Positions 368 through 21,372 of a DNA stretch of 22,784 nucleotides are shown one piece after another (positions within the stretch are counted from its first letter, which is position 1; the number at the start of each line of letters is the position of its first letter). This DNA is from Priapulus caudatus. Taxonomy: Eukaryota > Priapulida > Priapulimorpha > Priapulimorphida > Priapulidae. Location of the stretch: NCBI RefSeq assembly GCF_000485595.1, contig NW_014577069.1:315670-338453 (forward strand), written 5' to 3'. The notes under the pieces are model-generated. The model saw only the letters and a program-made list of their open reading frames with translations, did not search any database and was not told the DNA's origin. Position numbers and translations under genes: made by a program.

Positions 368-858
368 CGCGTATAATTCTCGTTGAGAAGAGGTGTTCCT
401 CGTGACTCTCTAGCGTGTTGTGTTTTCAGCCTATAAACTTGTTGTCTGAGAAGAGTACAGCGCTGAAGGAAGAAGTGTGTGTCTGTGAATTATATAGTTG
501 TTGATGTGATAGCATCGTTTATTGGCAGCAGATGGTATGTGTTGCAAAATAATGATATTAATTAACATCGTTTACAAGCAGGTGTTCAGTTGCAATCAGG
601 ATGCACACCTATACCGTATACACCTTATAACAGGTAGAGAGTTCTTGTAGATTGAGATATCAGATTTCTGCTGCTAATGAAAATTGTGCGTGACCGTCAA
701 TCAGCAAGGCAGTTTGGCGTCAGTCACGTTGTTATACATTTCATAGAATAGAGTGATTAGATCAAAATGAAAATAGGTGATTGTGGAAGTTTTAATTATG
801 CGCGTCGATTAAATCTTTGCAGTTGGTCTTTGTCTGCGATACACAACGCGTGCGTATG
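61..858. other. Non-coding stretch with a TC tract
   Basis: No exon, RNA gene or element could be supported here. The only clear structure is the TC microsatellite at 332-363. Short open frames in this stretch have no recognisable protein features. Confidence 0.6.
332..363. repeat. (TC)n microsatellite
   Basis: A pure TC dinucleotide run of about 16 units follows a T-rich stretch (AATTTTTTTT). On the plus strand it is polypyrimidine, but no AG-bounded open exon follows it, so it is annotated as a simple repeat and not as an acceptor tract. Confidence 0.97.
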
Positions 859-1003
859 TACACACACGCACGCACACACACGCACACACGCACACGTGAG
901 CATGCACACACACGCACGTACGCGCACGTACACACACGCGAACATGTACACACACGTACACCCAAACACACGCACGTACGCACGCGCGCGCACGTACACA
1001 CAC

Positions 1004-1045
<42 letters not shown>
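859..1045. repeat. CA / CGCA / CGTA compound microsatellite
   Basis: The tract mixes CA, CGCA and CGTA units and ends in an uninterrupted CA run of about 18 units (roughly 1010-1044). Several open frames cross it on both strands (His-Thr, Val-Cys or Ala-Arg repeats), but these only reflect the absence of stop codons in the repeat and are not genes. The alternating purine-pyrimidine pattern gives high Z-DNA potential. Confidence 0.97.
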
Positions 1046-1046
<1 letters not shown>

Positions 1047-1331
1047 CTCAACGACTGCTCTCAATATCGCTCAGCTATGCACGCGCGGCCGTGCAACAAT
1101 GCTCGACTTCGCTCACAAAGGCGTTACAGATGCAAAGTAGTGCGGAATGAGATCCAGCCGCAGGGTTTCGCAGACGCGCCTATGTGGACAGCGCGGGGCA
1201 CGCCTGTCACCCTGCCGCGGGCATCGCACGAGAGCCGAACAAGTTCTCCTGGTCTCCAACATAATAGCCGTCACGTCGCCGACGTCCGTCCGGGCATTTC
1301 CGGTTCCTTCATCGTCGCGCCGCGCGCGCGA
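1046..1331. other. CpG-rich unique stretch, no gene recognised
   Basis: This stretch is visibly richer in CG dinucleotides than its surroundings, for example CGTCGCGCCGCGCGCGCG near 1311-1329. Open frames on both strands show no recognisable domain. It could be a promoter-like or unmethylated segment of a gene whose exons lie elsewhere, but no TATA box, initiator or donor site supports a transcript start. Confidence 0.35.
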
Positions 1332-1377
1332 GTGCAAAATACAAATTCTAAATTGTGCAAAATAAAAATTCTAAATT
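1332..1377. repeat. 23-bp tandem duplication (2 copies)
   Basis: Two adjacent 23-bp units, 1332-1354 and 1355-1377, both read GTGCAAAATA[C/A]AAATTCTAAATT and differ at one base. This is a simple AT-rich duplication directly after the CpG-rich stretch. Confidence 0.9.
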
Positions 1378-1544
1378 AAATTCAATCCGAATCACGCGCG
1401 TCGGCGACAATGGTTCGATCGTTTGGACCGGTACGCGACCGGGTCGCAAGGAGATCTCGTAACGAGATTGGACGTGAATGGTCTGCATTCAGTCTGCGTA
1501 GTATAGTTCGCCGCTTCACCTCGAAACGCGATTATACATTTTAT

Positions 1545-1603
1545 CAGGACTGAATAATAATAGATTATTATTATTATAGACTATTATTATGAATTCACTC
1601 CTG
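1545..1603. mobile_element. 59-bp foldback MITE, 7-bp TSD (family copy A)
   Basis: The left arm CAGGACTGAATAATAATAG (1545-1563) is the imperfect reverse complement of the right arm at 1581-1603, which ends in CACTCCTG and carries a 4-bp insertion (TCAT in reverse complement). About 17 bp of ATT-rich sequence lies between them. The element is flanked by a perfect 7-bp direct repeat, ATTTTAT at 1538-1544 and again at 1604-1610, which marks it as a transposed insertion. The ends match the elements at 9216, 11429 and 16075. It is far too short to encode a transposase and would depend on one made elsewhere. It lies 200 bp upstream of the candidate exon at 1804. Confidence 0.85.
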
Positions 1604-1803
1604 ATTTTATGATTCGGCAGTGCTCGGCCGAACTGACGCATGAACTGATACGATGTATTATATCGATGTGATGAGAAGGGAAACATTTTTTCTTTTCTGT
1701 CATATATAATATAACCTAATCGACTTTTTTTGCAAGTTAGATGTAATCCGAATCACTTTTTTCATTATCATATTTATTCATTCAAACATATTTTCTTTTG
1801 TAG
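1604..1803 (+). other. Putative intron upstream of the 1804 exon, with acceptor site
   Basis: The last part of this stretch has the features of a 3' intron end: a T-rich tract (ACATATTTTCTTTTGTAG) ending in AG at 1802-1803. The in-frame triplet just before the exon is TAG, so the reading frame at 1804 cannot extend upstream without splicing. Confidence 0.5.
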
Positions 1804-1863
1804 TTTTTCAACTACGCCAAGTTGGATGAAGAACAGGAGATAGACACGGGCTATGAGTTAGAG
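1804..1863 (+). CDS. Candidate 60-bp internal coding exon, gene unidentified
   Basis: The segment is bounded by a pyrimidine-rich acceptor ending in TTTTGTAG and a near-consensus donor GAG|GTAAGTG. Only the frame starting at 1804 is open. It encodes 20 residues, FFNYAKLDEEQEIDTGYELE, and is exactly divisible by three (phase 0 in, phase 0 out), so it could be skipped or included without a frameshift. The other two frames hit TAG and TGA. The peptide is acidic and hydrophilic with no membrane segment. The gene is not recognised. The spacing D-E-E-x-x-x-D-x-G followed by E-L-E at the exon end faintly recalls the N-terminal cytoplasmic region of vertebrate Na+-driven bicarbonate transporters (SLC4A7/8/10), but there the two elements are farther apart, so this is only a weak inference. 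No start or stop codon is present. If real, it is an internal exon between introns longer than 1.8 kb and several kb. Confidence 0.55.
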
Positions 1864-4822
1864 GTAAGTGTTAGGGGAGGTAGCGGTAGGAGGGAAAGTC
1901 GATAGTGTAATCCCAGCCTAACACTTAGCACAAAAATAGCAGCCCTTGACTTAATATTACGCCCTATTGCACATGCACGTTAAAAATTGCAGAACGTAAC
2001 TATATTACCCACAGCACATTTCATTTAATGAACAAACCAAACAATAGCACCAAATCGTATATCATGGAATCATCTTCATGGCACATGGAAGTGCATGCAT
2101 GGCAGCCCACGTAAATGACACACAAGCAGGTCCTATATGTGGTGCGAGCTCGTGAGGATACCTTTATCGTGCGAGGGCAAGTGTTGTCTGTAGTTACAAC
2201 AGATTAAAGAGTTACTAACGCTATCGTCTCCGCGGGCCGCCGCCATGCAGTACTAGCGAGAACGTTACCGAGTGTTCATCGTGAGCATTAGTGCTGGGAT
2301 GAGTGTGATTAGTACACCGCATGTACAGGTATGGAGTCTGTGCGTGCGTCAGCCGAGCAACTGTGCAGACAGCTGTTCGCGTGCTCGGCTGGCTGTGACG
2401 ATTACCTGCTGCAGGCGACAATAGTGGGATTTCACCCCCTCCCCCTCCAGGTACACACAGCTTTGATGCTACCGACCGTCACTTGTCTTCCTTAAAATGA
2501 GCGCTATGTGCGTGCGTGTAGTGTCCGGTAGCTCAGTGCAGAAAAGCCGCACTAATGACAAAATTTGCTCGTGCTATTGGCTGCACAGCGGAAGAAGGGA
2601 TGAGAGACACGCAGCTCTGATCAGGTGAAGGTACGAGTCATCGGAAAGCAACAAAGACGAAATGAATATGCAAACTGGTTTACTGTTTAAATTCGTATAA
2701 ACTCGTGGTAATCTGATGCATTAAGTTTGACAGTTAGCCCTAGATAGTACAGAGATAATCCCGAGTGATTTTATTAGGAATAAAGGCAAAGGAATTAACA
2801 TATAATTTTAGAATATTTATGCTGGTTGGGATGATATGTTATTACCCTCTGCTATCTACGCACGTGTGCTACATTGTGGACAAAAAAAGACTTATTTCTA
2901 CATAAACATGGCATCAGAAGAAATCATATTTTTCCAGTTCTGCTGAATGTTTCCCGCTAGCGCATTCTAGTCTCACTATGGGAGACCGTGTCCAGTCCTC
3001 CAGTCCCTGAGTAGATCATTTTCAAGTATTCACCGCGCACACTCGTGGATGGCATACGTGCATCTCTGCATGCAAGACAGCCTGTACACGCGTACAGTTT
3101 TATGTGCAGTAAGCCTGGAGCGATCACGGGTTCAGGCGAGGGACGATGAATGAACGACCACCTGCCAGTCCAGCCCGACACGTTCCCCTCTACCATTGTC
3201 CCAACCCATAGTGCTGTTTAATTAAGCAGAAGCCTCATTATCTCCCGCCAGACACACGGCTGAAGGATTATACTGAGAACAATTATGACAATCGCAGTGT
3301 TTTCACCCCTACGATGAAATGTTCCCGCGTATTACCCCGCTCGCGCCCACAGTTGTATGCGTCGGGGAGAATATGACATTTGCGTGTATAGTTGCTGGAC
3401 ATACTGAAAGTCGTGGACGGTCAGTGTGCATGTTGGATTAGACACCTGTTACTGGATTACTTTCCAAGCACATGTTACTGGATTAGTTTGAAGACCATTT
3501 CCTTTTAACCGCTATAGTACTATGGTAATCCTAGAAAGTGCTTCGAACGTACGGGGATAGGTGTTAGGGTACCTCTGACCGCTGCCAGTTGGGGTGACTG
3601 CGCTGGGGTTAGCTCTTTCGGGGCAGCAGGGGATGCTTGCATACGGTTTTTGCAAACCAAGTAACCAGTATTTAGAGTCGATGGATTTTTTTACTTCTTA
3701 TTCCTGTGAGAGCACGATTTTTTCTGCTAAGTTCACAATGATCTGCAAACGAAATTGTCTGATATAGAAAGTATGACGTATATGAAAGTATATCTCGCTC
3801 GAGGCGTACATATGAGCACAGAGTCTTCGAGTACGTAATTCATAACAACCCCAATTCTCGGAGTGTTAATATATAGAGCGTGCCTATTCTAGTAGACCTG
3901 TCCATGTCAGTGATGTCAGTGAATGCCTCGCAGGGTAGAGGCTGAACGTCAATGCATGTCTGCATGTATTATTAGCTCTCGATGTCTGTTATAACGCCTG
4001 CCAAATGTGCATGCGCCGTAAAATGCACCCATGAATATACTGTTACAGGTTAAGTCAATATTTTGGTTGTTGGTTTCCATAGAAGTTTCAAGTGAAAATA
4101 TAGACCAGTTGTCTCGTATGTCTTGAGCAAACGAGTTATTGTTGTTGCAGCATAATCTAGTCTCAAATCTAACTAGACCCTACTGTTACATGGGCTTAAA
4201 TCATGCGACCCAGCAGGTGTATTGCCGTGAGCAGTTTGATAATAACTTGGAAAGGCATGGCGTAACATATAACGTAAAAAAGGGTGCCACTTGCTCTGAG
4301 CTATGGTTTTGATTATTATTCATCTATCATCACTATATCATTTGATATTGGATAACAATTGACTATAAATGTTAACACTGCTCAGTGGACTTTTGTTAAG
4401 ACAGAGGAGAGGTTAAAAGTTGGACAGGGGTGGGGGTGTACGTGGTCAGAGAGGATAGTAACCGGTGAGGGGCTAAGCTGTTGTTGCGGCTACTACTGCA
4501 TGCAGTCGGTACTAACGCTTGCGCGACAGTTGGTCCTGGCGCCGCCATTTCTCCCCTGGCTCCCAGAAGCCGCATTAACTTTAAGCTCAGCTCCCTGTTT
4601 TCAGTGATTAATCCATCGTCGCGTCAGATGTTAGTGTAGAGACATGTCTGCATGATGGCGTCTTCTCTCTGAAGCACGCGGTTCGTGTTCCTGCGACCTT
4701 CGTGACTACTAACGACTTCATATTAGTCGCAGTCTACGGGGAATCACCCCATAATAGCTCACTCTCTGTGTGCCATATATCCATATCTATCTCTATATGT
4801 GATATATATATACATATATTTA
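1864..4822. other. Long stretch without recognisable gene (probable intron)
   Basis: No exon with both splice signals and an open frame was found. Visible items are a GCCGCCGCCATG start context at 2236-2247 followed after three codons by TAG, a C-rich tract at about 2434-2449, and an imperfect duplication around TGTTACTGGATTA at 3443-3493. An open stretch after TTGTTGTTGCAG near 4150 runs about 54 codons to a stop but has no donor and no recognisable features. Confidence 0.5.
3443..3493. repeat. Imperfect ~26-bp tandem duplication
   Basis: Two adjacent segments, 3443-3468 and 3469-3493, share CAC[C/A]TGTTACTGGATTA[C/G]TTT and then diverge. They look like an old local duplication and have no coding or structural meaning that can be seen. 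Confidence 0.6.
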
Positions 4823-4954
4823 AATTGATTAGCCTTCATCCTTCCAATATCTTCTTTGTGTAACATGACTTACATATACACACACATTTATGTTATACAG
4901 TTACAAGTCATGTTACACAGAGGAGATATGGTGGGAAGATGAAAGCTTATATAA

Positions 4955-4991
<37 letters not shown>

Positions 4992-5028
4992 CACAAAAAA
5001 GATAAGGGAAGATGAAAGCTAATGAATT
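4823..5028. mobile_element. Compound inverted-repeat element with three related arms
   Basis: The left arm (about 4823-4870, beginning AATTGATTAGCCTTCATC) is matched in reverse complement by two separate right arms. One lies at about 4906-4949 (TCATGTTACACAG to GATGAAAGCTTA) and the other at about 4996-5028 (ending GATGAAAGCTAATGAATT). The inner pair could fold into a stem of about 40 bp with mismatches. The outer pair extends to the element ends. An AT microsatellite (about 4959-4994) separates the two right arms. This suggests a MITE whose right arm has been duplicated or nested. No clear target-site duplication was found, so the exact ends and superfamily are uncertain. A transcript crossing it could form a pre-miRNA-sized hairpin. 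Confidence 0.7.
4959..4994. repeat. (AT)n microsatellite inside the compound element
   Basis: A run of about 17 AT units, interrupted once by ATACAT near its end, separates the two right-hand arms of the inverted-repeat element. Confidence 0.9.
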
Positions 5029-5559
5029 CTATTCACTTGAGACATTATGCCGGCGTAATACTAGAGAGATGTAGGCCACTAGCAGGAAAGCATAGTATGT
5101 TATGTGCTAAGTACCACAGTGCGCGCGCGCCTGTTTTCTACCTCTGTAACATTCAGTTGTATCATAAATGTGCTTGATGCAAGCGAGTAAAAAGAGAAGC
5201 AAGAGTGATAAAATAATGTATTGCATGTATTATGAAGCGCAACCCTCAAACATGGCTCGAGTAAAATTGGTAAATTTGTTAGCTTTCGTCGTATTACGCA
5301 GGTGACGCTGATGCGGTTGTAGAAGACAGCGCTATGGCACATCGCAGCACATTACGGCCACGCATCGTGTTTGGCGCACACCTGCTAATTAGGATGTGAT
5401 AACTGTTAGAGCAATCAGTGTGCAGCCAGGTGTGTCAACCCCACCGAAATTAACGAAGAGTGCCCATCGAACTATAATCTCAATGGGCATCTTCCTCTGC
5501 AGCTATTGAGTCTTTTGAATTGAACCATGTCTACGTAACCGAGTACATACTCGCACATA
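5029..5559. other. Unassigned non-coding stretch
   Basis: No exon, RNA gene or mobile element is evident. A short GCGCGCGCGC run occurs at 5121-5130. The longest open frames are about 80 codons with no recognisable domains. Confidence 0.55.
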
Positions 5560-5814
5560 GACGCGTGACGCACGCACATACACGAACGCACGCACGTACA
5601 CACGGCACAGTCAGACGTGCACATAAATATGCGTGCACACGCACGCGCGCAGGCACGTACATACGCAGGCATGCATGCAGACACTTACATAAATATGCTT
5701 GCACACGCACGCACGCGCGCACGCAGGCAGACACACACATATATATGCGTGCACACGCACGCACGCGCGCACGCGTGCGTACGCCCGCGCACACTCGCCG
5801 ACGCATGACGCAAG
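5560..5814. repeat. ACGC/CACG array with higher-order units
   Basis: The tract is built of CACG, CGCG and CA units, with three copies of a larger motif of about 50-65 bp beginning CATAAATATGC, CATAAATATGC and CATATATATGC (near 5621, 5688 and 5738), each followed by [G/T]TGCACACGCACG. Both ends carry the related words GACGCGTGACGCACG (5560-5574) and GACGCATGACGCAAG (5800-5814). Frames through the repeat are free of stops on both strands, which explains the Cys/Val/Arg- and His/Thr-rich open frames. These are not genes. Confidence 0.93.
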
Positions 5815-6523
5815 TGGACATTTACGACTTCCTCCCTCGCGCGGCGACAATAAGAACTGACTGAAAGAAACGCGCACCTGAATGGTTGCTCTGTGTAAGT
5901 GCGCGTGCATTCACGCGCGTGATGTAACAGTTGGCGCTGGTGCCAGCACGACACCCAGCCTTCCCTAAGGACGTCATCAGCCACGCATAAATATGTCGTC
6001 CGCCGCGTCTGTTCCACTATAATCCACATAAATATGTTGTCCCACTCCCCCCGGAAGTCGCCGCCCGCAATTGATTTATGTACACGCATTTTTTCCCGTA
6101 TACTCCGCCCGTGTTCTTGTTCGCGTCTTTGTTGGACGTCGTTTTTCCCATGATGATGTCGCGGCACCACCGTGTAATGCCGGTGTCTGGCTAGACGGTC
6201 GCGTCTGTGTCATCGTAATACTGCTGCTGAATTTCCCACAGTGCAGAAGAGCGCATGTTAGATGGTATGTTATATCATTTGAAGCTTTGTAGCATTAGAC
6301 ATTATGTACGCTGGTTATGTATGCTATATGTGCTACCCTGAACTACGTCGTTCTGTGAAAGATGGTGCGACCTATCGTAATTTCTAGGCTGCGTGGTTTA
6401 GTCTTAAACATGCACGAGAAATAGCGGTGCTGAATCCTTGAGGTTTTGTCAATATTTGGTACTCGGGAAGAACATTCGGGTTCAGTCTTGAGCTATGGTA
6501 GCTTCCGGTGCACATCTGCTCAG
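5815..6523. other. Unassigned stretch with a CCGGAAGT site
   Basis: No exon is supported. CCGGAAGT at 6051-6058 matches the ETS-family binding consensus and is followed by CGCCGCCCGC, so a weak promoter-like character is possible. No transcript start, donor or conserved reading frame backs this up. The word CATAAATATG from the preceding array recurs at about 5985 and 6027. Confidence 0.35.
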
Positions 6524-6547
6524 TATATATATATATATATATGTATA

Positions 6548-6605
<58 letters not shown>
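6524..6605. repeat. (AT)n microsatellite with ATGTAT interruptions
   Basis: About 40 AT units with GTATAT interruptions at about 6543 and 6553. Being self-complementary, the tract is likely to extrude as a cruciform and to be length-polymorphic. Tyr-Ile repeats in the open frames across it are artefacts. Confidence 0.97.
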
Positions 6606-6608
<3 letters not shown>

Positions 6609-8149
6609 TTGTGTTGTCATTCCGCGCCTGTCTTACTCGATAGGATCTTTCACTCAACGCCCTGCATGCAAGCATACAGCGTTTATACACACACTTCAAT
6701 CGTAATTCTGCCAGCAACTGGAGAGCATTTTAACCTGGGCCCCAGTTATCCCAGTTTACCATGACATTTGTGCGCTTAGATCTATGGTGCTTTTGGAGTT
6801 ACGCGAGATGTGTTATATCTGACCACAGCAGCCGCGGCAATATAGTATTAAGCGCCATTGTGGTAACATCCGAGGCGTTTATGACAGACAGGTTCCGTAG
6901 ACGTCGGTGCAGACTTTGTTACTTCGTGATGTAATTGATGAGTGATTTCGAGACGTCATTTACACGTGGACTGTATATTTACGACCGTTGGTGTTTCGCG
7001 CGTGTTCGCGGACCAGGTGTGGTTGCCAGGCGTGTCTGAATGCATCGGAGCCGTGGGGATGCTACAAACCGCTAACGACTGCTGGCGGGCTAGCGGGGTT
7101 GGATGTGTCTTTTCTGCCTCGTGCACACCTGCGGGTAGTGTGACCGTGTCCAAAACCACACGCAATCAGGTGTAATTAACCTGTTGATCCGTTAAGATAG
7201 CGCTAGGAGTTTAACAGGGGGTACGACTGCACGATAAAGTGACCGTTTCATAGCACAACATTCGCTTCATCGAATTTATCTGTGTCTATTCGATATAATA
7301 ACAAATGTTTCCTTACAGCGGCAGTTTTTTCATTTAAAATTCGCGGCACAAAAGGAGGAATAGCGAGGCTTTTATTAATGCAAGCACCCGACTCGTGGCT
7401 GGTTGAGTGTCTAAACGGACATGGAACGTAGTTTCGTTGATTCTAATTTATGAAATAAGCTGACTTAGCAATTGAAATCATGCTTTTTGTGGGCTTTGGG
7501 TACACGGCATGTGTTTGTAGTAGATAGATACATCTCACCTCGATGCTTACTCGATCAGAAAATCCACCCACTTCCTGTAGCTGTTTGCCGGCAAATCGCT
7601 AGCCAACAACCATCCAGCATCATCGCAGGGGTAATTCCTGGCGAGAGTCTTTACACAGGTCGAACGCTCTGTTCTCTCCTATATGTACTGTGTGAGGGTG
7701 TACATGCACCGGGTGAGTCATGCCTTGTTGTGTGGTGTTAGAATGAATGCTGACCTCGTCACATTTTCTTCAAACACCCGAATACATTTTACACTCATTT
7801 CACACGTGTTTTCATTTTATTTTTCTCAGACTATCCCGATTCAAGAGAATAATTCATTCACGATAATTGAGTCTTAGAGCAGTCCAACAACCAAAATTCA
7901 ATAAAATTAGTTGTTCAATTTATAATAGACATTCACTTTGCTATTATTAGTTTTAAATGTATATACAATTTCCACAAGGTACTTCTAGTTTCAACTAGAA
8001 CTGATAGGCGAAAGTTACTATCCAATCGATGACGTTGTATTTTATTAAATAGATTTAGGTAAGGTTAGATATAGCTGTCTGTCGTTTTCCAATAAATTTA
8101 TATTTCGAATGGTTTACCAGGCTTATGATATTGGTCAGGCCTAAGACTT
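6606..8149. other. Unassigned non-coding stretch
   Basis: No supported exon or element was found. Open frames reach 89 codons, with no recognisable domains and no paired splice signals. A short perfect stem, TTCTAGTT/AACTAGAA, lies at about 7983-8000. Confidence 0.55.
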
Positions 8150-8260
8150 CCCGGCTCACTGGGTGAATAAATCGTACGAGGAGCAACATCAGTGAGTCAT
8201 CCAGAATAACCTAGCTGAGCTACCAGTACCAGGATCAAACCAGGTGGTCTTCCATTGAAA
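8150..8260 (-). repeat. Possible tRNA-derived SINE fragment
   Basis: On the minus strand the words GGTTTGATCC (like a pol III B box) and CTGGTAGCTCAGCTAGGT (like an A box) occur within about 45 bp. They are in the order B then A, the reverse of a functional tRNA promoter. This could be the joint of a dimeric or rearranged tRNA-derived SINE, or chance. No cloverleaf can be folded, so no tRNA gene is called. Confidence 0.2.
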
Positions 8261-9215
8261 GTAAAAGTTTAGGCGCGCTGTGAAAATAAGCGTTTGGCAC
8301 TGCTTGAAAGATTCATAGAGCAGCACAAAGCTGGCTCTTTTTCCTCCCATAAAATGTGCGAAAGTAGGTCACTCTCCCTTTCGTGTTTAGTCTACCTGTG
8401 CTCTTGCCTGCATACACCAACCTGGATACCCTATAGGCAGGTGCTGGGAATCATAGCAACTGGTATTAAGCGTTGGATTTTGCAGCCAAATTTCTAACCA
8501 ACGCATTGTAGCGTTATCGATTTCTAGCGGTCCAGTTTTCCTAAAGGCAATAATTGTGCGTAAAATCGTGTAACTATTTGGGCATGTTCCGGATTATAAT
8601 AAAGTTCGCAATAAAAATGTGCGAATGCAATAATTTGACATCAGTTGGTATATTCGGTCGAGAATTTTTCATTCGCAACTTCAGTTCGAAAAATTTACAC
8701 GTGCCTGGAGAAACACCATAACACTGACGCATAATATCGCCTCGTGTTATTGCCTTGTCGAGACACCCAACTTAACGCTAAGTCGCAATAGGTTATAGGG
8801 ATCATGCAAGTAAATGGCATGAAGAACGCATTTGCGTGACTTGCACGTGTGCCTAGTTCACTCTAAAGCAACCCGAATTTTCTATTACCTCAAATATTAG
8901 TAGTTAATGTATAGATAATATATATTTATAGATATTTTATAGCAGTTAATTTATAGATTTAATGCTCGCACATTAATGAAAAGTATACATGAATTTTGTG
9001 TCATACGTTTGATTATGAAGTTCGTCCCTAGATCAATTTCATTGTTGAACGTTCAAATAGACGTGTGCGAACTGATTGCTAACATTACCGGACAGTAGAT
9101 GGCGCTACTTACCATGAATGATTTTGGAACTTGAACCTGGGCGCTAACTGGTGGCAGCACTGCATCATTCTGCTACCAGTAAAGTTGTATGTGTTCCATT
9201 ACTATCTAGTATAAC
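8261..9215. other. Unassigned AT-rich non-coding stretch
   Basis: No exon or element is evident. AGATGGCGC, identical to the core of the Drosophila CTCF motif, occurs at 9097-9105. AT-rich sequence around 8890-8960 contains degenerate TTTATAGAT repeats. Confidence 0.5.
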
Positions 9216-9278
9216 CAAGAGTAGATAATAACACACTCTATTATTATCTCTAATCTCTAGTGTTATTATCTACTCGTG
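9216..9278. mobile_element. 63-bp foldback MITE, perfect 7-bp TSD (family copy D)
   Basis: The left arm CAAGAGTAGATAATAACAC (9216-9234) pairs with the right arm GTGTTATTATCTACTCGTG (9260-9278) with one mismatch at the third position. About 25 bp lies between them. A perfect 7-bp direct repeat GTATAAC flanks the element at 9209-9215 and 9279-9285. The arm matches the CAGGAGTGAATAATAA ends of the other copies at 13 of the first 16 positions without gaps. It is a diverged member of the same family and cannot encode a transposase. Confidence 0.82.
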
Positions 9279-9361
9279 GTATAACTCATACAGACAATAA
9301 ATGTGGGAACCCTGTATATAAATTGTATCGTGACTATTGCACAAAACTGTCTCAACAAAAC

Positions 9362-9397
9362 TAGAGTCCCTATATACAGACATATATAGGGACTCTA
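9362..9397. mobile_element. 36-bp hairpin insertion with perfect 8-bp TSD
   Basis: A perfect 15-bp inverted repeat, TAGAGTCCCTATATA (9362-9376) and its complement (9383-9397), surrounds a 6-nt loop CAGACA. AACAAAAC occurs at 9354-9361 and again at 9398-9405 as an exact 8-bp duplication. Removing the hairpin and one copy leaves two ACAAAACTRTCTCA units in tandem, a plausible empty site. The terminus TAGAG and the 8-bp duplication fit the hAT superfamily (end consensus YARNG; established), but the element is too small to be classified firmly. Confidence 0.75.
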
Positions 9398-9405
9398 AAC
9401 AAAAC

Positions 9406-10269
9406 TATCTCAAACATGTAGTCTCCACATATTCTAGCTACAGTGGTGGATATAGGCAACGTCAACGCTCAACATAACGAATAAAAATGTTGAAACGATC
9501 CATTGTTAAATTTCTTGTTATGTATAATTAATTATATATAATAATTGTTTATATTGTCTGTATTAGTATTATTTCTTACGATATGACACATAAGGCAACA
9601 TAACTTGCAAGTTACAAGATTATGTTTGCGTTTTATAGCATTCTAGTGATGTGAACAAAGGGTAGGGTGATACTCCATTAGGAACCATCACCATTTAGGG
9701 CCTACCATGCACTTTATGAACGCTTGCGGGGCTCGAAAATCACGCTCATAGAGCTAGGTAGCGCGTTTCGCTGACCTTGCTTTGCTTTACGACTGTATGA
9801 CTGCATGTGTAGTGTGTACACTACAACCTGTACTATATATGTGAGAAAGAAACATAATTATACGAAAGTTCTCAATAACTAGTTGGGGATAGATGTAGCA
9901 ATAAGCACGCGTCCTGAATAAAGTGTTTGACTGCATCATGCTGTTTAACTGCGACACAGACTATAATTATAAGCTGTTCATTCAGCCAATTCTTACTGCC
10001 CACTGATAGCTGCAAAGCAATAGCTTGCTTCGAAAAAAATAACGCAGCGAAAACGCAGGTAGCATGCGTAAACGCACGCTATATAAAACTAAAATAAATG
10101 TAGAACCATGTAAACATACGCGCGCGTTTTATTTATATAGTGGCAGGTTCCACATGTGTCAGTACATGGTACTGCATCTGTTGGCCACTAATCAACATCC
10201 TGCTGCATGGCCTACACGCCCATGTTTGGATGAGGGCATGTGTCAGGGTCGGCGCTGTAGCATTGCACG
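9406..10269. other. Unassigned non-coding stretch
   Basis: No exon, RNA gene or repeat is evident apart from AT-rich sequence near 9520-9560. Scattered short open frames show no recognisable features. Confidence 0.55.
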
Positions 10270-10555
10270 GTAGCACCCCCTAAGAGAGATCTCACCAGAA
10301 CCAAATGCTATTGCTGCTGGGGGGCCAGAGGGTCAGTGTAAAACAGGCCAGCACACGAGGCGCACGCGTTTTCCGGACACGGTTCAGTTCTCTGGACGCA
10401 GTCGTGGTGATAGTCTTTGCAGACGAGCTCTCTTCACACGGCAGGCAGCTCTGTCTGAACCCTTAACGCAGCCAGCACGAATCGCTGCTGGCAATTTACC
10501 AGTTGATGTGTGTTTGCTGAATTGACCTCGTCGTAGGCTAATGGTTTTCCTGCAG
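10270..10555 (+). promoter_or_regulatory. Possible 5' region upstream of the 10556 exon
   Basis: This stretch has more G+C and CpG than its neighbours (for example GAGGCGCACGCG near 10355) and ends in the acceptor-like TTTTCCTGCAG. It could hold a promoter and a non-coding first exon, or simply be intron. No TATA box or clear initiator is seen. Confidence 0.25.
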
Positions 10556-10614
10556 CGAAAATGAGTGCTTCTGCCAGGCAGAGATTTTTTGCGACGATGG
10601 ATGCAGAAGACGAG
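10556..10614 (+). CDS. Candidate exon, possibly alternative first coding exon
   Basis: The segment starts after TTTTCCTGCAG and ends at a strong donor GAG|GTAAGC. An ATG at 10561 with A at -3 opens a frame of 18 codons to the splice site, MSASARQRFFATMDAEDE, ending in phase 0. A second frame (from 10557) is also open and would read ENECFCQAEIFCDDGCRRR as an internal exon, so the coding frame is not certain. The third frame, which would continue from the exon at 1804 in phase 0, stops at the third codon. The two candidates therefore cannot be neighbours in one mRNA unless the ATG here is used as a start. The protein is not recognised. A promoter for an alternative N terminus is one reading, chance splice-like signals another. 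Confidence 0.35.
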
Positions 10615-10981
10615 GTAAGCCAGGCGAGGGGCGAGCGAGCCGACGTCGGTGTCCGACTCACACTGCTGACACATATAGTATTGCCTAGTTCCTTCCTGCC
10701 ACACGACTACATGCTCAGGGGGAAAGATGGGCACGCCTAGCTCGTGTTAATTCGATTTGGCCATTTCACCAGGTTTCAAACGTTTTTATATTAATTATTT
10801 TAAATTAATAGTTTTGGGGAGTGGTTTCGAGCCAGCTACCGTTCTGCATGACGAATTGCATGACGAAAAGGTATTTTTTAGTCGTTTCTCTAACAGCTAT
10901 GGTATAATTTCCTTTCATTAAAACTTGTAACTATAATAAATGTCCTATCGTGACAACTAGGCAAGCTAAATGAGTGCAACG
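10615..10981. other. Unassigned stretch downstream of candidate donor
   Basis: If the exon before it is real, this is the 5' part of its intron. No further exon is supported. A 116-codon minus-strand frame spanning 10384-10734 overlaps the exon but has no recognisable domain and is about as long as chance frames get here. Confidence 0.45.
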
Positions 10982-11063
10982 TTCGTTGATCTGTCGTCAT
11001 GACTTGAACCAGCAGTTCGTTGTTCTGTCGTCATGAATTGAACCAGCAGTTCGTTGTTCTGTC
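10982..11063. repeat. 34-bp tandem repeat, 2.4 copies
   Basis: Units at 10982-11015 and 11016-11049, plus a partial unit at 11050-11063, share TTCGTTG[A/T]TCTGTCGTCATG and then A[C/A]TTGAACCAGCAG. The two full copies differ at only two bases, so the duplication is recent. Confidence 0.92.
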
Positions 11064-11428
11064 TATAAGCATAATAATTGTGACTGAAAATTAAATGCGG
11101 TTCATTGGTGATATATACGTACAGGATGCCATTGCTGATCTGCTAATCCGAAAACGCACGCACACAAGTCGCATAATATATTATATGATTTTTTTGTGAA
11201 GAATCATGAAGAAATGTCCCTACCCTCGTGTTGTAACACAAAATAAATGTTAAAAGTTTAAGGTTATAATGTTAGTGTAATATGTATCATTGAAAAATTC
11301 GATAGAAAAATTAATTTTTACGTATGAGCCACAGTCAATTGATCGTACAAAAAATAACGACGCTTTTATGCCAGAAAGTGGGCACGTAAAATTATACGTT
11401 GGTTCATAGCACGTAATGGTTTTATTGG
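11064..11428. other. Unassigned AT-rich stretch
   Basis: Nothing gene-like was seen. It contains a small palindromic ATAATATATTAT and several A/T runs, and leads into the foldback element at 11429. Confidence 0.55.
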
Positions 11429-11505
11429 CAGGGGTGAATAATGACAAATGTCATTATTGTCATATTCATATTCATTTCATGTTCATTTGTCATTATTCAC
11501 TCCTG
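11429..11505. mobile_element. 77-bp foldback MITE, perfect 7-bp TSD (family copy B)
   Basis: The left arm begins CAGGGGTGAATAATGACA (22 bp, 11429-11450). The right arm ends TGTCATTATTCACTCCTG (11484-11505). The two pair over 22 bp with one mismatch. TTATTGG flanks the element at 11422-11428 and 11506-11512 as an exact 7-bp duplication. The left part is also palindromic in itself (AATAATGACA/TGTCATTATT), so two mutually exclusive hairpins can form. It is the largest copy of the CAGGAGTGAATAAT family in the window and has no coding capacity. Confidence 0.87.
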
Positions 11506-11797
11506 TTATTGGTCCTGTACAATAAGTAAGGAAAGGGGTAAAGTAATGTAGGAAATTTTTTGCTCATTGCCCGTAATGATTACACGAAATTAGAATTAGG
11601 ATAGCGTAATACAGCATAGCAGAGCATGAAAAGGCCCTAACCATAAAACAGCGCGTTATACGTAAAAGGTTATAGTGCCTGCAGGGAAACATTGCTAGGG
11701 AAAGGTGTGGTATGATGGATTGCGTAGGAATAAATCTTTATACACCTGCATTTTATCATTTCAAATTGACATAATAGCACACACTCTCCTTGCTGCT
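11506..11797. other. Unassigned non-coding stretch
   Basis: No exon or element is supported between the foldback element and the GTGC array. Confidence 0.55.
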
Positions 11798-12009
11798 TGT
11801 GTGTGTGTGTGTGCGTGCGTGCCGTGCGTGCGTGCGTGCGTTGCGTGCGTGCGTGCGTACGTGGCGTTCGTGCGGGTGCGTGTGTGTATGTTGGCGTGTG
11901 CATCTTTGTGTGCATTTATCCTGTGGTCTGCATGTGTGTGCGTGCGTGCTGTTTGTGGTGTGTGGTGTGTATGTGTGTGTGTGTGTGTGTGTGAACGTGG
12001 CGTAGCGTG

Positions 12010-12040
<31 letters not shown>

Positions 12041-12126
12041 TGTGCGTGTGCGTGTGTGCGTGCGTGCGTGCGTGCGTTCGTGCGGGCGTGTGTGTATGTG
12101 GGCGTGGGTGCGCGTGCGCGAGCGTG
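11798..12126. repeat. GT / GTGC compound array
   Basis: Blocks of GTGC units alternate with GT runs. Two larger segments are related: GCGTTCGTGCGGGTGCGTGT (near 11864) and GCGTTCGTGCGGGCGTGTGT (near 12073), each followed by GTATGT[T/G]GGCGTG. This indicates segmental duplication inside the array. Open frames up to 150 codons (Cys/Val/Arg or His/Thr/Arg repeats) arise because the repeat lacks stop codons and are not genes. Z-DNA potential is high. Confidence 0.95.
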
Positions 12127-13404
12127 GCAAACACAGACGGAGCCAATGCATGGATGAGTTTATTAATTAGCGTCTTGCAACCTTCTGTTTAAATTTTGCA
12201 TAATGCGTCTTCCAATAAGTTTCTATTCACCAAGAAAATGCATTTTCCGATAAATCCCCTGGCTAGATTTTCGAACATTGCCACACAGATCGCCAGTAGA
12301 AGTATATATTGTTTATCTTATCTTATATCAGTCATTGAGCAATTCTTAGCTCTTCTCTAAATTTCTGACAGTTGTAAACAATTTGCAGTAAAATTTTGAG
12401 TGAAAGTGATCATATTCTTGATTCTATCGTCTGGCCGAAATGATAATTTTTTAAATATTTACTATTATATTATATTGCTTATTACTTATTGCTTACTTAT
12501 TTCTTATTACTTATTACGCTGCGGGTGATTATCTAGTCAAAACAGTGGGCATTGCAGACAAGTACGCGCCACCCCCGCGCCGTTGAACAATGGTATCTGC
12601 CAGTAGTTTCGGCCATTCACGAGCAAGCATTTCCGCAGCGGATCGGACGTGAGTCGGCGGTGTTCGCATGTGTTCAACACTCGCGTGTGTTTGCCAGCGT
12701 GCTTGTTTGTGATCGTTATTCCCAACTCCGTGGTAGGCATTTAGGAAATACACCCAGGATTTGTGACCGTCTAGGAATGCTGTGAAGAAATACAGGAATG
12801 CCGTAAGAGAGAAAATGGTATGTGAAGTTGTCGACTGTACGTCAACCGTTCGTTCGTAAGCGGCGATGTACATATTACTACGTCTGTGTTGACATCGCAA
12901 TGGCAACGCATCGGCGAGTTTGAATTACTAGTACTAGTACTAGTAGTAGTACTACTCTTCTTTTAGTACTTTATTTTTAATCGATCCTGAGTTGCATTGA
13001 GTTTGTTATAAATTTGTAATAACGATAATTGTAATATGTAACAGTATGCGGTATTGCATGAGTGATTTCAGGTCGGTGTAGATATACGGTGTAATACAGC
13101 ATTACGTTGATTTGTAAACTTTTGTGTCATGTACTAACTCCGTCACTAACTGTCTCATGGCAGAAATGTCTGCGAGTCATCTAGCTACGTGTTCTTGCGA
13201 TCTGATATTTGGAGATAAAATGTCGCCAGCGACAAGATATCCACATACTACCGAGCTAGATCATACATATGATGGTTAGGTGCGCGGTCATCAACGGTGA
13301 AAACAAAATATCGCATTCATTTAATCGCCCACGCTAGCTAGCGACAAAAGTCGCAGTGCGACGACCTTTTTTGTGGAGCGTGGACTCACGGTGCAAGCGG
13401 ACAC
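12127..13404. other. Unassigned non-coding stretch
   Basis: No exon was found. A 125-codon minus-strand frame (12529-12906) is the longest non-repetitive frame in the window, but shows no domain and no splice context. A short palindromic ACTAGTACTAGTACTAGT lies near 12928, and a small stem TGTCGC/GCGACA near 13219. Confidence 0.5.
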
Positions 13405-13460
13405 GTGGTGGCAGTCACACACACGCGACCGCGCACGCACACCCACCCACGCACGCATGT
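13405..13460. repeat. Short CA/CACG-rich tract
   Basis: CACACACACGCGACCGCGCACGCACACCCACCCACGCACGC is a degenerate version of the array motif seen elsewhere in the window and ends before 13460. Confidence 0.6.
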
Positions 13461-13717
13461 ATATCGTTGGGATAGGCGTTCGTGGTACAGGGCTTGGTGG
13501 TGTTGTGTTGCCCACAGTGTGCCGGTGGCTGGAGCTCTTAAGTGGTCATGACAGGTGTTCACGTACAGCCAGCTGAACACTGTGTACTCCTGCACCAGTG
13601 GCCTGAACCAGTGGCCTTTTCGAACACTGCCCAATTTGTGTTGTAACCGGAGAAATAGCAAGAAAACTCACTGAGCGTAATTCATGAATAACGAAAGTAA
13701 CGAGGGCTCAATATACC

Positions 13718-14232
13718 CAGGGGCGGATTCAGACCGTATTTGCCGTATTGGGAAATACGGTCTAGATTTCAAAGTGCCCTTCGAAATTTTGCGCTAAAAA
13801 ATACAGAAAACAATTTGATGGAATTTGGCTATATTCTTTATTTCTCTTCTTCTGGTTCATTGACAGGACTTGAAAGAAATCAAAATTTTAAATGGTAACA
13901 GAACTAACTTTGATATCTGAAAAAGAAGAGAAGTGCTTGAATCATTCTGCATTAATTGCTGTTATGCAAAGCGCAAGCAAAATGAAGCAGAAATAAAATT
14001 CCATATGGTTTTTAGCTATTGATGCTTGACTAAATGTGTGCTCAAATGGTGCTCATTTTTGCGCCCAGGTACCCTTGAAATTTCGAAATTTCCTGGGGGA
14101 GGCCCCCCAGACCCCCCGCCATGTGCTTCTGCGCCTAACGGCGCCCACTGTGGTGTGGTGTGCCCTTTTTGGGGGATGTGCCCTTAAAATCTGGAAAAAT
14201 ACTGTCTAGCTTCAGCCCTGGATCCGCCCCTG
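13718..14232. mobile_element. 515-bp hAT-like non-autonomous DNA transposon
   Basis: The ends CAGGGGCGGATTCAG (13718-13732) and CTGGATCCGCCCCTG (14218-14232) form terminal inverted repeats with one mismatch over 15 bp. The start CAGGG fits the hAT end consensus, and ends of the form CAGGGGCGGATCCAG are well known in animal hAT elements. Inside are a perfect 11-bp stem AGACCGTATTT/AAATACGGTCT (13731-13741 and 13753-13763), a GAAATTTCGAAATTTC word, and a G/C stem CTGGGGG/CCCCCAG near 14093-14110. No transposase frame is present. Flanks ATATACC and ATAGCCC match at 5 of 7 positions, so the target duplication is decayed or uncertain. Confidence 0.75.
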
Positions 14233-16074
14233 ATAGCCCCCGATATTACTCCCTCCCAAGCTATTATAATAGTTCACATCGCTAAAGTTCAAAGTAATCT
14301 TAACTTTGGCATGGTAGTAAAGTATAGTAGCGTCACACACTGGCATATAAATGATAAGGATTTGTTCTTAACTTACCCCATAACCGTTTTATGAGAACTA
14401 ACATTATGTATTATCATATGTAAAAGCAAAGACTGGCGCATGTAATCGTAGGCGTATATGTAACATGTAATTTTTTGTTATGTTTTTACGTTACATACGT
14501 AAGAATGAGTGTGAACGTGTTACATAGAACATTACGTTCTAGCCGTGTGAAACTTAACGCTAACAGGGACACATGTATATATATAGCGTATATGTGCTGT
14601 GAGTCATAGATCACGTACTGTGTGTGAGGTCCACTCACGTTGACACTTGAGATGTTCAAACACTGGACAGAAGGTTGTGCGGATGAACTATATAGTGCGG
14701 CTCTATTCATCCCGAGTTGCTGGCGCCATGCTTATTCACTCTTCTGCGAACAAGAAAACAAGAATAGGCGTGTGAAAGAGCCATGTACCTGCCACGTATC
14801 AGACAAGGGTGGGAGGGATTTCCTGTGCTGTTGGTACGTGAGGATGAGCCTTCGAATACAATATATATATATGCCATTTTAACTGTTTGTTATACGCAAG
14901 TTGTGATTACACTACCGTTTATGATGACACTTTGTCGGTAACCCCGGCCGAAACTACATGTGTTTCAACAAAAGGAAAAAAGTTTTACATGTTTAGCTGT
15001 AAACTAGCGTACTTTTAGTAAACTAGTCACATCCTTGCTCCCATGTGCATGGTTCCAGGTACGACACGTATGGTTCCAGTCCGTTTGTAATGTAGCGCGT
15101 CTGGGAAGAGGCACGAAGTATTGGGTCGTTGTAAAAATGGCCAACAATCTACTAACAATGGGCGCTGGTAGACGCCATAAATGTTTAGTTTACAACGAGC
15201 CAGTGTCTGAACGTTACTGCGCTGCCATTAAACCGGAAAGAGCAACACGCAGATGAGAGGCGAAGGATGTGCAATGCAAGGAGGGTTCTTTAGCGCTATA
15301 TGACGCGTTGTTCCAATTTTACATATTGATCCTAGAAAGGTACGTGGACTTCAAAAGCAAGAAACATGTTGGATCTTAGCTTCAAATAATGTGAAAAATT
15401 GTTAGTAGATAGGTTATTACAACCCATCTTATTTGGCTAGGGAAGAAAACCAGTGTTGCCATTGGCAGGTTCCTTTGAGTTTGAGTTACAAATTGGAGAG
15501 AACTGATGCATAAAAATTCAAGTGTGCGTCTGCTGCATGCACATGCTGTCTATAGAATACGGACACAAGTTGTCTGATCATAGATCTGTGGCACACAGTG
15601 AAGGGATTAGGAAATTCTGTTTCAGTTTCAGTACGTGCACCTCTTGTTGAAACCTGTTTGCTATTCTTGGCACCTGCCACCATCTCATCTCTGCTACACC
15701 CCGTCAGCGGAACAGACGAATAAACGTTTCGTTTCGGCAAGAATGACACATCTTACCAGTCTGAAATTATAGGGTTTTATCCAGAGCCGTAATTAATTCT
15801 AAGAGCAGAAGATCAGGTTTTTACGAGAGGTAATCCCTCCAATGATCCACATGAGAGAGGCAAGCTCAGCTCAGCTTATATTGGAGATGTTTTCTATGAG
15901 TCACTGTAAGATTAATCGGTCTATCTGGTGCCAAGAGTGGGCAGTTGAGCTTTGGCACTTCATAAACCTGCTATCAATGTTTTAAAAAGAATTTTTCGAC
16001 GAGCTTAACGTTTTATGTCTTATAAATGTCTTTATCAGTAGTCTCTAAATATCTCGCTTGGGATAAGATAGTAA
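14233..16074. other. Unassigned non-coding stretch
   Basis: No supported exon or element. Open frames of 73-87 codons have no recognisable features. Weak AT-rich palindromes occur around 14445-14510 and 14570-14600. Confidence 0.55.
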
Positions 16075-16114
16075 CAGGAGTGAATAATAATAGATCTATT
16101 ATTATTCACTCCTG
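16075..16114. mobile_element. 40-bp perfect palindrome, minimal MITE (family copy C)
   Basis: The half-site CAGGAGTGAATAATAATAGA (16075-16094) is followed immediately by its exact reverse complement (16095-16114), giving a 40-bp perfect palindrome with AGATCT at its centre and no internal sequence. Its ends match the elements at 1545, 9216 and 11429. The flanks ATAGTAA (16068-16074) and ATAGCAG (16115-16121) agree at 5 of 7 positions, consistent with a decayed 7-bp duplication. It could be an end product of internal deletion. It could extrude as a cruciform. Confidence 0.82.
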
Positions 16115-16258
16115 ATAGCAGTCGGTTTGCGATTCTTTGACATGTAGTGCAACAATGGTGTTGGAACTCGCGCAACACAGGTCCCTGTTTTTCCGCCTTT
16201 AAGAGTGGCGCAAGTACCAATCATGTATCACGGACATTGTGGGTTTATATGGTAATTT
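16115..16258. other. Short unassigned spacer
   Basis: Nothing gene-like is seen between the two small inverted-repeat elements. Confidence 0.55.
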
Positions 16259-18212: not shown

Positions 18213-18309
18213 CACTGAACTATAACAATAGTATTACAATATACACATTGCACAACAGTACAATAACAGTATACTATTATATAATATATACAATTGTTAT
18301 AGTTCAGTG
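18213..18309. mobile_element. 97-bp TIR element with perfect 8-bp TSD
   Basis: A perfect 17-bp terminal inverted repeat CACTGAACTATAACAAT (18213-18229) is mirrored at 18293-18309. The 8-bp word GGCAGCAC is present at 18205-18212 and exactly repeated at 18310-18317, which is strong evidence of transposition. The AT-rich interior of about 63 bp encodes nothing. An 8-bp duplication fits hAT, P or related superfamilies, but the CACTG end does not settle which. It differs in sequence from the CAGGAGT family. Confidence 0.85.
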
Positions 18310-18317
18310 GGCAGCAC

Positions 18318-20714
18318 ATCAACCTGTAGAGTTACAGGTCTAATGACACTGGTTAGGTGATGGAAGGCAGGAGAGAGGGTTGGGCTGTTTTAAGGTGTTG
18401 AAGGCAGACGTGCAAGTTTTGATAAACGATTATTGTGAATACACTTGATTAGTAATAGGGCAATGTGAGGGCGGGTCTGTTCGTAGGTTGCGTGAGCGTG
18501 GTACACATGCAGTAGCCGCGTGGTCGTTAGCATTTAAACGCTTAATTTCAAGATCGCGAAACATTTATTTATTTATTCATATCTTCACCGCACTTTCTGC
18601 GCATGAGTTATTAATTGGAAGTGGCTCATCAGTACCACAAGAGTTGATGAAGTATTCAGCGTGACTCATCGAATAAACAGTGTCTCCAGATTTGTTTGTA
18701 AGAGATTATTATATATGCCGATATGTTGGCATAGGTACGCGATTTTCTAATATATACGTACACAGTACATACATTACACACGCACCCTCCCTCCCCACGC
18801 ACACACACGAAACGCAAATTGACATAAACGGGTATTCATTAACATTGCTAAAATGTAAACAGAATTTTAACTCTGTAAACAGGAACGTTCGTCCAACAGG
18901 CACCGCAATATCCGTGTCATTTGCAGGTATGACGGCTTGTGTGTACATTCATCAAGCTGCTAATAAACAACCCATAAGTTTATAGCCACAAATATTTTAC
19001 AAAAATGCCATTTTCTAAACATGCGATGTGGCCAGGTAAAATGCTAAACCTGTGTGAGCAGCCGTGGGCGTGCGTTGAACACAAAAGGTCACCACTAGAC
19101 TACAATTCTTGTTTACCAACCATGATTGCAGCCTATGCTAGTAATTAGTGAGAGAATAGTACATTTTCTGGTCGGTAGATCAAAGAGATTTAGCGGCGTC
19201 TGTTATGTACACTGCGGCGAAATGTAAACAATCAAATTTATCACGGACAGTGGTTATAGAACGCTCTGCCACTTTCTGCAGCCTTGGACCAGTGGTCACC
19301 GAAACAGCGAAAATGTTGAAAACCGTAAAAATTCAGTATTAGTGATATAGTCACAATTTCATGATATGTATCACACTCTGTCCGATTATTTACCTCTGCA
19401 TCGTTAATGATGTCCCTGGAATCAGTTCCCGGTAATATTCGCAATCAACTTGCCTTCCAACGTTGGATGTTGGCTGTGTATAACGAACGTATTTGTTGAG
19501 TAAAACGTGTTTGTAATCGTGTTCATATGGACATGCATGACGGGTTTGAGGAAGATTAAACTGCAAATCATTAACTCCGAATCTTTGGAGAAGGACCGAG
19601 GACCAAGAAACTGAGGATAGACGGACGAGGGAAGTAGAGTGCTGTAAGACGGCACCTCGTCGCATCCTAACCAAGGTCAACTGCTGGGGAAAAGCCTACA
19701 CGTGTGATCAGATGGCGCGTACAGTATACTTGCGAGAGACGGTAATTGAGACCAGTCGTTGGCACGAGGGTTATGTTGTGGGAGTGTTAAGTCTGTACCC
19801 GTTGGCGTGAGAGGAAATCGCTGTCAGTTTCTTACAGTCTAAGAAAAAATAGTTACGGAGAAGACAAGTTCTACAGTGGTTGGTTGGCTCCAGCGAAATG
19901 GTGATGTAACAGCGAAGGTAAAATAATATAGACATACGCGTTTATACAGATTAAAAATATACAAAAAACAATATACACAAATTGAAAAATGATATAACAT
20001 AACTGTATAACCATATAAAAATAAATAATATACGTTTGTTAGCTTCGAATGCCAATAGCTGACTCGGTCAATATATAACCTTAGGGAGGCAGTGACGAGC
20101 ACGCACGCTCGAGTAAATGACCACCGGCTAGGGGCCATAGTGAGCCCAGCCATTGGTGATTTTAAAAATTCATCGGGCGATTGGCGGCTCGTTAGTAATT
20201 CTGATTGCGGTAATAGGGCAGTGATAGATAATTGATGTCGCTATTCTCTGCGTCCAGTACTAATGTAGGTAACAATGATCGAATATAGGCAATACAATGA
20301 CACACACACGCGGACGGGGTCGCAAAATATCCGGCCTGCTACGTATGACCAATGAAGCAAGAACACGCGGCGGGTGGGATCAGTAGCGGGATGCCGAAAT
20401 TAGCATGCATGCGTGAATTGTAAAAGAAGGCCTGCGCGTCTAATTGCAAGTAGCAAAGTAATGCGCCATGTCAAGTGCTGGCGTCGTGCGTGAGTGACGT
20501 CATGGAACCTATAGTATAGATAGATGCTGTAGATGCATCGTTCCAAAGCTTCGTCAGGTTTGGACTTTGTCGTTGTATTCTTTTCGACCGTGGCAAAAAC
20601 GTTTTCTCAATTTTGAAACTTGCTGGTAGGTCGAGTGCAAACAAAAACTCCAAATATTCACGCGAAACAAAAATAGGGGGATTCCTTGTTAAATATAATT
20701 AATTTATTAATTAT
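18318..20714. other. Unassigned non-coding stretch
   Basis: No exon or element could be supported. AGATGGCGC, the Drosophila CTCF core word, occurs at 19710-19718. A short CA/CG-rich tract is at about 18778-18808. Open frames up to 104 codons lack recognisable features. Confidence 0.5.
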
Positions 20715-21372
20715 ACGGGCTTCCTTGGTAGATATATACGGGCTTCCTTTGTAAATATATACGGGCTTCTTTGGTAAATATATATGGGCTTTCTAATTGG
20801 TAAATATATACGGGCTTCATTAGTAAATATATATACGGGCTTCCTTGGTAAATATATATACGAGCTTCCTAGGTAAATGTATACGGATTTCCTTGGTAAA
20901 TATATACGGGCTTCCTTGGTAAATATATACGGACTTCCTTGGTAAATATATACGGCCTTTCTTGGTAAATATATATACGGGCTTCCTTGGTAAATATATA
21001 CGGGCTTCCTTGGTAAGTATATACGGGCTTCCTTGGTAAATATATATGGGCTTCCTTGGTAAGTATATACGGGCTTCCTTGGTAAATATATATGGGCTTC
21101 TTTGGTAAATATATACGGGCTTTCTTGGTAAATATATATACGGGCTTCCTTGGTAAATATATATGGGCTTCCTTGGTAAATATATACGGGCTTTCTTGGT
21201 AAATATATATACGGGCTTCCTTGGTAAATATATACGGGCTTCCTTGGTAAATATATATACAGGCTTCCTTGGTAAATATATACGGGCTTCCTTGGTAAAT
21301 ATATACGGGCTTCATTGTTAAATATATACGGGCTTCCTTGGTAAATATATACAGGTTTCCTATTTTTTCGTG
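20715..21372. repeat. 23-bp minisatellite, about 27 copies
   Basis: The unit ACGGGCTTCCTTGGTAAATATAT (23 bp) is repeated about 27 times from 20715 to 21350, with some units lengthened by an extra AT to 25 bp, followed by a decayed last unit. First and middle units vary most (for example GGGCTTTCTAATTGG in unit 4). Because 23 is not a multiple of three, three units read as 23 codons. The minus strand of the repeat lacks stops in any frame, which yields a 169-codon frame with Tyr-Ile-Phe-Thr-Lys-Glu and Lys-Pro-Val-Tyr motifs. It is not a gene by any independent sign. Confidence 0.96.

Follow-up and report, generated by a model that had tools for sequence, protein, structure and literature searches.

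Four very short palindromic insertions lie in a 22,784-nucleotide stretch of the genome of the priapulid Priapulus caudatus (contig NW_014577069.1, positions 315,670 to 338,453; hereafter, the window). These insertions, copies A to D, are most likely repair scars of P-type (Galileo-like) elements and not a family of miniature inverted-repeat transposable elements (MITEs). More generally, it is highly probable that such palindromes are excision scars of a foldback-type transposon resembling the P superfamily. This reading is favoured because three features together match the anatomy of Drosophila P-element scars: ends shared with large elements, a 20-nt limit to that sharing, and varying filler built from words of the tails.

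Copy A (59 bp, positions 1545 to 1603), which we take as a scar of end family F1, consists of the left tail CAGGACTGAATAATAATAGA with one change, AT-rich filler, and a right tail that is interrupted near its end, so that this end is broken up (CAGGAGTGAATTCA). The sequence reads ATTTTAT on both sides, at 1538 to 1544 and 1604 to 1610. Copy B (63 bp, 9216 to 9278; family F4, CAAGAGTAGATAATAACAC) has two 19-nt tails with differing sequence in between and is flanked by GTATAAC at 9209 to 9215 and 9279 to 9285. Copy C (77 bp, 11429 to 11505; family F3, CAGGRGTGAATAATGACAAA) lies between copies of TTATTGG at 11422 to 11428 and 11506 to 11512; its left end reads CAGGGGT and, by eye, the filler between its two tails repeats the tail words TTCAT and GTCAT. 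Copy D (16075 to 16114) is a 40-bp perfect palindrome, a pair of 20-nt F1 tails that meet without gain or loss at the junction. Its flanks, ATAGTAA (16068 to 16074) and ATAGCAG (16115 to 16121), are identical at five of seven positions. No strand is assigned to any of these features. An earlier sequence-only reading of the window had given the same coordinates and lengths, the same three exact 7-bp repeats and the same partial match at copy D, and all of these were correct on re-reading. Its contention that 7 bp is the real duplication length also stands, since the bases just outside the repeats differ at copies A, B and C. Allowing up to three mismatches, the 14-nt end CAGGAGTGAATAAT is found 11 times in the window, compared with a mean of 2.26 in shuffled sequence, and none of 100 shuffles reached 11.

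These ends recur throughout the assembly (385,217,808 bases in 2,952 contigs, including the window). The exact 14-mer CAGGAGTGAATAAT occurs 1,476 times (708 + 768), compared with three (1 + 2) for a reversed control. For closer study, 20 regions of 10 kb and 54 small regions were fetched from the first 100 listed places, on contigs 1 to 18; requiring at least one exact 14-mer end biases this sample toward copies with a perfect end. Partner ends were then picked by end similarity alone, leaving 55 non-redundant copies after exclusion of the 22 of 101 examined ends that had no partner within 300 bp. An exact 7-bp duplication flanked 28 of the 55 copies, and 45 had at most one mismatch over 7 bp. 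Exact duplications of 6, 8, 9 or 10 bp were absent from all 55, and one copy had an exact 4-bp duplication. When right flanks were swapped among copies, exact 7-bp matches averaged 1.86, with a maximum of 7 in 2,000 trials. The 7-bp target duplications of the earlier reading are supported in this wider tabulation, and the duplicated 7-mer follows the palindromic consensus RTANTAY.

Over 222 kb, a scan blind to family looked for inverted repeats bordered immediately by direct repeats of 6 to 10 bp, with a seed of 6 exact bases, and returned 38 hits, some of which are registers of one element; three shuffles returned 0, 0 and 0. Half of these hits (19 of 38) start with CARGAG. Copies A to D fall outside the 38, as A, B and C vary inside the exact seed and D has no exact repeat. 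Chance formation of AT-rich palindromes, to which the ATAATA-rich arms might seem to point, is exceedingly improbable and was rejected on the reversed, swapped-flank and shuffle controls together. Of the 29 copies listed for the 20 loci of 10 kb, 16 have no exact 14-mer, and their density of ∼0.08 per kb of unmasked sequence extrapolates roughly to ∼3 × 10^4 copies in the genome, a figure biased by the choice of loci for a perfect end and by a duplicated stretch in one locus (L014). The earlier reading is supported in so far as it proposed a repeat class scattered through the genome, with conserved ends that number well over a thousand. Copies may also be nested, as at L019, where one (2550-2587) lies inside another (2517-2603). 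A paired-end pattern had 0 matches in viral contigs.

The ends fall into several families, including F1 (CAGGAGTGAATAATAATAGA), F2 (CAGGAGTGAATAATAGAGA), F3 (containing GACAAA), F4 (as in copy B), F5 (CAGGAGTAGATAATAGGGA) and F6 (CAAGAGCTAATAAT), with a few further families in the sample (to F8). Two F5 copies have 8-bp duplications (L013:3236-3275 and L014:6094-6130), and a third (L021:3042-3102) has an exact 10-bp repeat within a TA run. hAT transposons make 8-bp duplications. They were rejected as the source of the 7-bp families, with 0 of 55 exact 8-bp duplications among F1-F3-type ends, although F5 does have 8 bp.

The sequence-only reading had also proposed a search for a longer autonomous element with the same ends. 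Five large foldback elements with these ends were read, of 787 to 2,055 bp. The first (L028:4473-5450; 978 bp) has long inverted repeats and the target duplication ATAACAT. Three others also have exact 7-bp duplications: L089 (1,645 bp, TTATTAT), L090 (1,066 bp, ATGTTAT) and L091 (787 bp, ATTATAT), the last with a change at the second base of its left end. The longest, L088 (2,055 bp), has flanks that match at five of seven positions. Across the five, the terminal inverted repeats are 87-94% identical over matches of 213 to 318 bp, and the duplication is exact in four. A further large element, of family F5 (L021:2217-3025, ∼809 bp), is flanked by the 8-bp duplication ATACGTAT. With the 978-bp element as query, 162 matches were found in the genome with 40 of 508 candidates scored. 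Two adjacent 1-kb elements on contig C76 together span just under 3 kb. Repeats resembling the telomeric TTAGGG form a run inside the 978-bp element, at about 4980 to 5040 of L028. A 20-mer from the interior of the large-element ends is matched exactly at 28 genomic places, compared with 1,476 for the exact 14-mer end. Because the two words differ in length and divergence, these counts do no more than suggest that there are many more scars than large elements still in place. None of the 28 places forms an inverted pair 3-6 kb apart.

The large elements and the small copies part company at a sharp boundary. In the large elements of F1, F2 and F5, the first 19-20 nt are followed by GGAGTRTGAC or a sequence close to it, and sharing with the small copies stops just ahead of this motif, at 20 nt in F1, 19 nt in F2 and 19 nt in three copies of F5. 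Recurring behind the tail in three families, the motif may be a candidate subterminal site for THAP-domain binding. To measure the boundary, small-copy ends, all with the exact 14-mer, were compared with those of the large F1 and F2 elements, with both ends of the 978-bp element excluded. With positions 1-14 fixed by selection, the longest match among 105 ends was 14 nt in 10, 15 nt in 4, 16 nt in 4, 17 nt in 10, 18 nt in 15, 19 nt in 19 and 20 nt in 43. Removing eight ends from loci fetched by a 40-mer left 35 of 97 matching 20 nt, none longer, and a range of 14-20; these ends are not independent, as many copies contribute two. Matches shorter than 20 nt look like trimming. The large-element consensus was drawn by eye from five elements and position 21 varies among those of F1, so the absence of matches over 20 nt leans partly on one variable base, and position 22 is therefore the better test. 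Here all six F1 large-element ends read have a G, compared with one of the 38 small ends of F1 type. In F2, two of 25 ends match at each of the first two positions beyond the tail.

This boundary bears on another possible origin, in which elements with long terminal inverted repeats were inserted whole and later lost their centres by hairpin-driven deletion during replication. Palindromes are prone to deletion, and the large elements are strong foldbacks. Nonetheless, such deletions would stop at many places, whereas the limit is fixed at 19-20 nt in F1, F2 and the three F5 copies, and sequence has been gained in the small copies, not merely lost. We regard hairpin deletion as very unlikely.

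What lies between the tails differs from site to site. Near-palindromes in the sample range from 28 to 236 bp. Among 25 non-duplicate complete copies there are 23 distinct sequences, and without three copies fetched for one 40-mer all 22 of 22 are distinct. Where filler is at least 12 nt long, 145 of its 742 7-mers (19.5%) occur in tails, compared with 1.6% for base-shuffled filler. For the one long copy tested, of 132 bp in L042, the search returned only the copy itself and one 57-nt partial match, with no second copy, whereas the 978-bp element gave 162 matches. This single result is weak and no proof of uniqueness because the search skips very common words. The 40-mer that forms copy D, a plain 20+20 tail join, occurs at seven genomic places. 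At the five that were read the flanks differ; the duplication is exact at two, has one mismatch at one and two mismatches at two.

These interiors count against true MITEs, 30-100-bp non-autonomous transposons moved as units by a transposase supplied elsewhere. Like MITEs, the palindromes are short and numerous, with conserved inverted ends and target duplications. The 40-mer present at seven sites with differing flanks would fit a mobile 40-bp unit, and two copies in L014 are present in one copy of a region and absent from the other. Unlike MITEs, however, the palindromes compared did not share interiors, their conservation ends at the tail limit, and their length is that of two tails plus a filler full of tail words. 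A MITE with a shared interior was accordingly rejected for the sample. As the simplest 20+20 join, the repeated 40-mer could also recur independently. The L014 absences also fit an allele that never received the insertion, or slippage loss, and the region copy concerned is noisy. A MITE origin is thus distinctly unlikely. The sequence-only reading of the palindromes as ultra-short transposons as such is likewise not supported, given that the conserved part ends 19-20 nt in, where large elements continue, and that interiors were not shared among the complete copies compared.

In L014, the same region occurs twice in diverged form (700-3350 and 4100-6900), once with many small insertions and deletions; the two are probably haplotypes left uncollapsed in a noisy assembly. 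Two small copies, one of 45 bp (F4, duplication ATAGTAT) and one of 37 bp (F5, duplication ATGTCCAT), are each present in one region copy, and the other has the target once. This pattern fits insertion and excision on one allele, and also fits slippage loss between direct repeats. BLAST searches with joined flanks within the sample gave an empty site only inside L014; matches to the nested L019 copies reflect the outer scar itself.

The proposed mechanism draws on Drosophila P excision. There, P junctions retain the 8-bp target and up to 17 nt of terminal repeat, joined at microhomology or around an insert to give a mirror image (PMC2895639). Also described are 17-nt tails made by P transposase, inserts that are in some cases templated, trimmed tails and a blunt join (PMC2895639). 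The P scars thus resemble ours in having the duplication on both sides (in tail-bearing joins), terminal-repeat tails on both sides, and inserts, and because the layout is the same, we read the palindromes as products of polymerase-theta-type end joining. The junctions of its Table 1 came from laboratory crosses of flies without Rad51, and 20 isolates were joined at long microhomologies with tails removed (PMC2895639). Thus, the fly set is laboratory-made and includes many tail-deleting joins, whereas ours is a large natural one.

By analogy, a foldback-type P-like transposon in Priapulus would insert at the palindromic RTANTAY, with a duplication of 7 bp, or of 8 bp for a sister family. On its departure, transposase would cut one strand at the element end and the other 19-20 nt inside, and this stagger would leave on each flank 19-20 nt of the terminal repeat as a single-stranded tail. 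The gap would be closed by polymerase-theta-type end joining, with the tails either joined to each other as they are or separated by filler templated on them. The product would read duplication, tail, filler, tail, duplication, and the sampled palindromes do keep their duplications, a tail remnant of fixed length and tail-like filler specific to each site. The duplications, the sharp 19-20-nt limit, the large elements with the same ends and the abundance of tail words in filler are read from the sequence itself; from them we infer the transposase, the strand cuts and the repair polymerase.

Another of the closest known systems is Galileo, a Drosophila member of the P superfamily. It makes 7-bp and some 8-bp duplications at GTANTAC (PMC4168063), and has long foldback terminal inverted repeats and copies mostly without transposase (PMC4168063, PMC3573991). 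The elements here share the 7-bp duplication with some of 8 bp, the palindromic target and the long foldback repeats. Unlike Galileo, no transposase was found inside the large elements, and small scars of this kind are not described in the passages used of PMC4168063 and PMC3573991. Of the two leads in the sequence-only reading, P-like is the better, on duplication length, RTANTAY and foldback repeats, whereas Dada fails. Dada does make 6-7-bp duplications, but these transposons have no terminal inverted repeats and insert in small-RNA genes (PMC3706591); the elements here have strong terminal inverted repeats and RTANTAY targets, and Dada was rejected. P-type is thus the best reading of what the element works like. 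P-transposase domains are present in the genome, but none was tied to these ends, and membership of the P superfamily is inferred. PF12017 has 14 matches and PF21787 has 64, with 0 in 14 control genomes of unspecified nature.

Several points weigh against the excision-scar reading. The five large elements contain no long open frame, as judged from frames only, with no domain-library scan, and no transposase linked to these ends was found. Stretches were read around four P-domain places (C1414, C408, C1591 and C286), and such ends were absent at the first three. At C1414 (67600-73379; L092), an 827-residue open frame carries the P-transposase domain set, including the THAP9 C-terminal domain; no inverted repeats of these ends were found around it in 5.8 kb, and it is perhaps a host THAP9-like gene. 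At C286, a weak P match is followed 4.6 kb downstream by a large-type end; the 2.8 kb read contained no matching left end, and the reading did not extend to the intervening 4.5 kb. The F1 tail only weakly resembles the P tail (shuffle fraction 0.007 when free and 0.058 with CA fixed). Drosophila P scars differ in having 17-nt tails and an 8-bp duplication, compared with 19-20 nt and 7 bp (8 bp in one family) here. Large parents of F3, F4 and F6-F8 were not found in the sample; scar status is thus assigned to copies B (F4) and C (F3) by analogy, as neither has a large parent there. Joined-flank BLAST within the sample showed no site where one allele carries the full element and another a scar, and tail-less joins, common in the fly table, are invisible to a 14-mer-based search. 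To these belong the limits given above on the tail comparison and the L042 search, and the recurrent 40-mer.

The missing transposase and the weak tail resemblance also favour excision scars of a different, non-P superfamily that likewise cuts ∼20 nt inside its ends. Duplication length, the palindromic RTANTAY target, long terminal inverted repeats and the deep stagger point instead to P/Galileo, and a non-P origin is unlikely. A broader alternative, rather unlikely, is that the cuts 19-20 nt in are made by a transposase from outside the known superfamilies, or from a P lineage that diverged deeply, and that tens of thousands of end-joining scars were left. Were that so, the genome could be seen as a naturally kept record of templated repair of breaks, with little remaining of the transposon.

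Other repeats accompany these insertions. In L097, a scar-like copy (2101-2142; flanks ATAGGAT and ATGGGAT, identical at six of seven positions) lies beside a decayed P-like transposase fragment. Within the window, the family-blind scan identified a 36-bp palindrome at 9362-9397 (TAGAGTCCC...GGGACTCTA) with exact 8-bp flanking repeats (AACAAAAC); this is another tiny insertion or scar, with other ends. A separate DNA-transposon family is represented by a 97-bp element at 18213-18309 with ends CACTGAACTATAACAA and 8-bp repeats GGCAGCAC. By eye, the ends CAGGGGCGGATTCAG...CTGGATCCGCCCCTG at about 13718-14232 suggest another inverted-repeat element of ∼515 bp, and a minisatellite-like run at about 20690-21360 has a unit resembling TACGGGCTTCCTTGGTAAATATA.

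P-type excision scars are already known from laboratory flies; Takasu-Ishikawa, O'Brochta and Staveley reportedly described P footprints in earlier laboratory work, and Beall and Rio are said to have mapped the P cuts. Here, such scars appear as an abundant natural repeat class, one that repeat-finding software would probably label as MITEs. Judged by titles and abstract openings, searches of an open-licence library listed no comparable natural genome-wide set, which speaks only weakly for novelty. Because each scar preserves the ends of the break together with the outcome of its repair, a single assembly could yield very many independent germline repair events, including cut position, trimming, microhomology and templated insertion. 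Scars also offer a way to recognise past transposon activity once the elements themselves are gone. If the excision-scar reading is true, they record how the cells of this animal mended breaks in their DNA.

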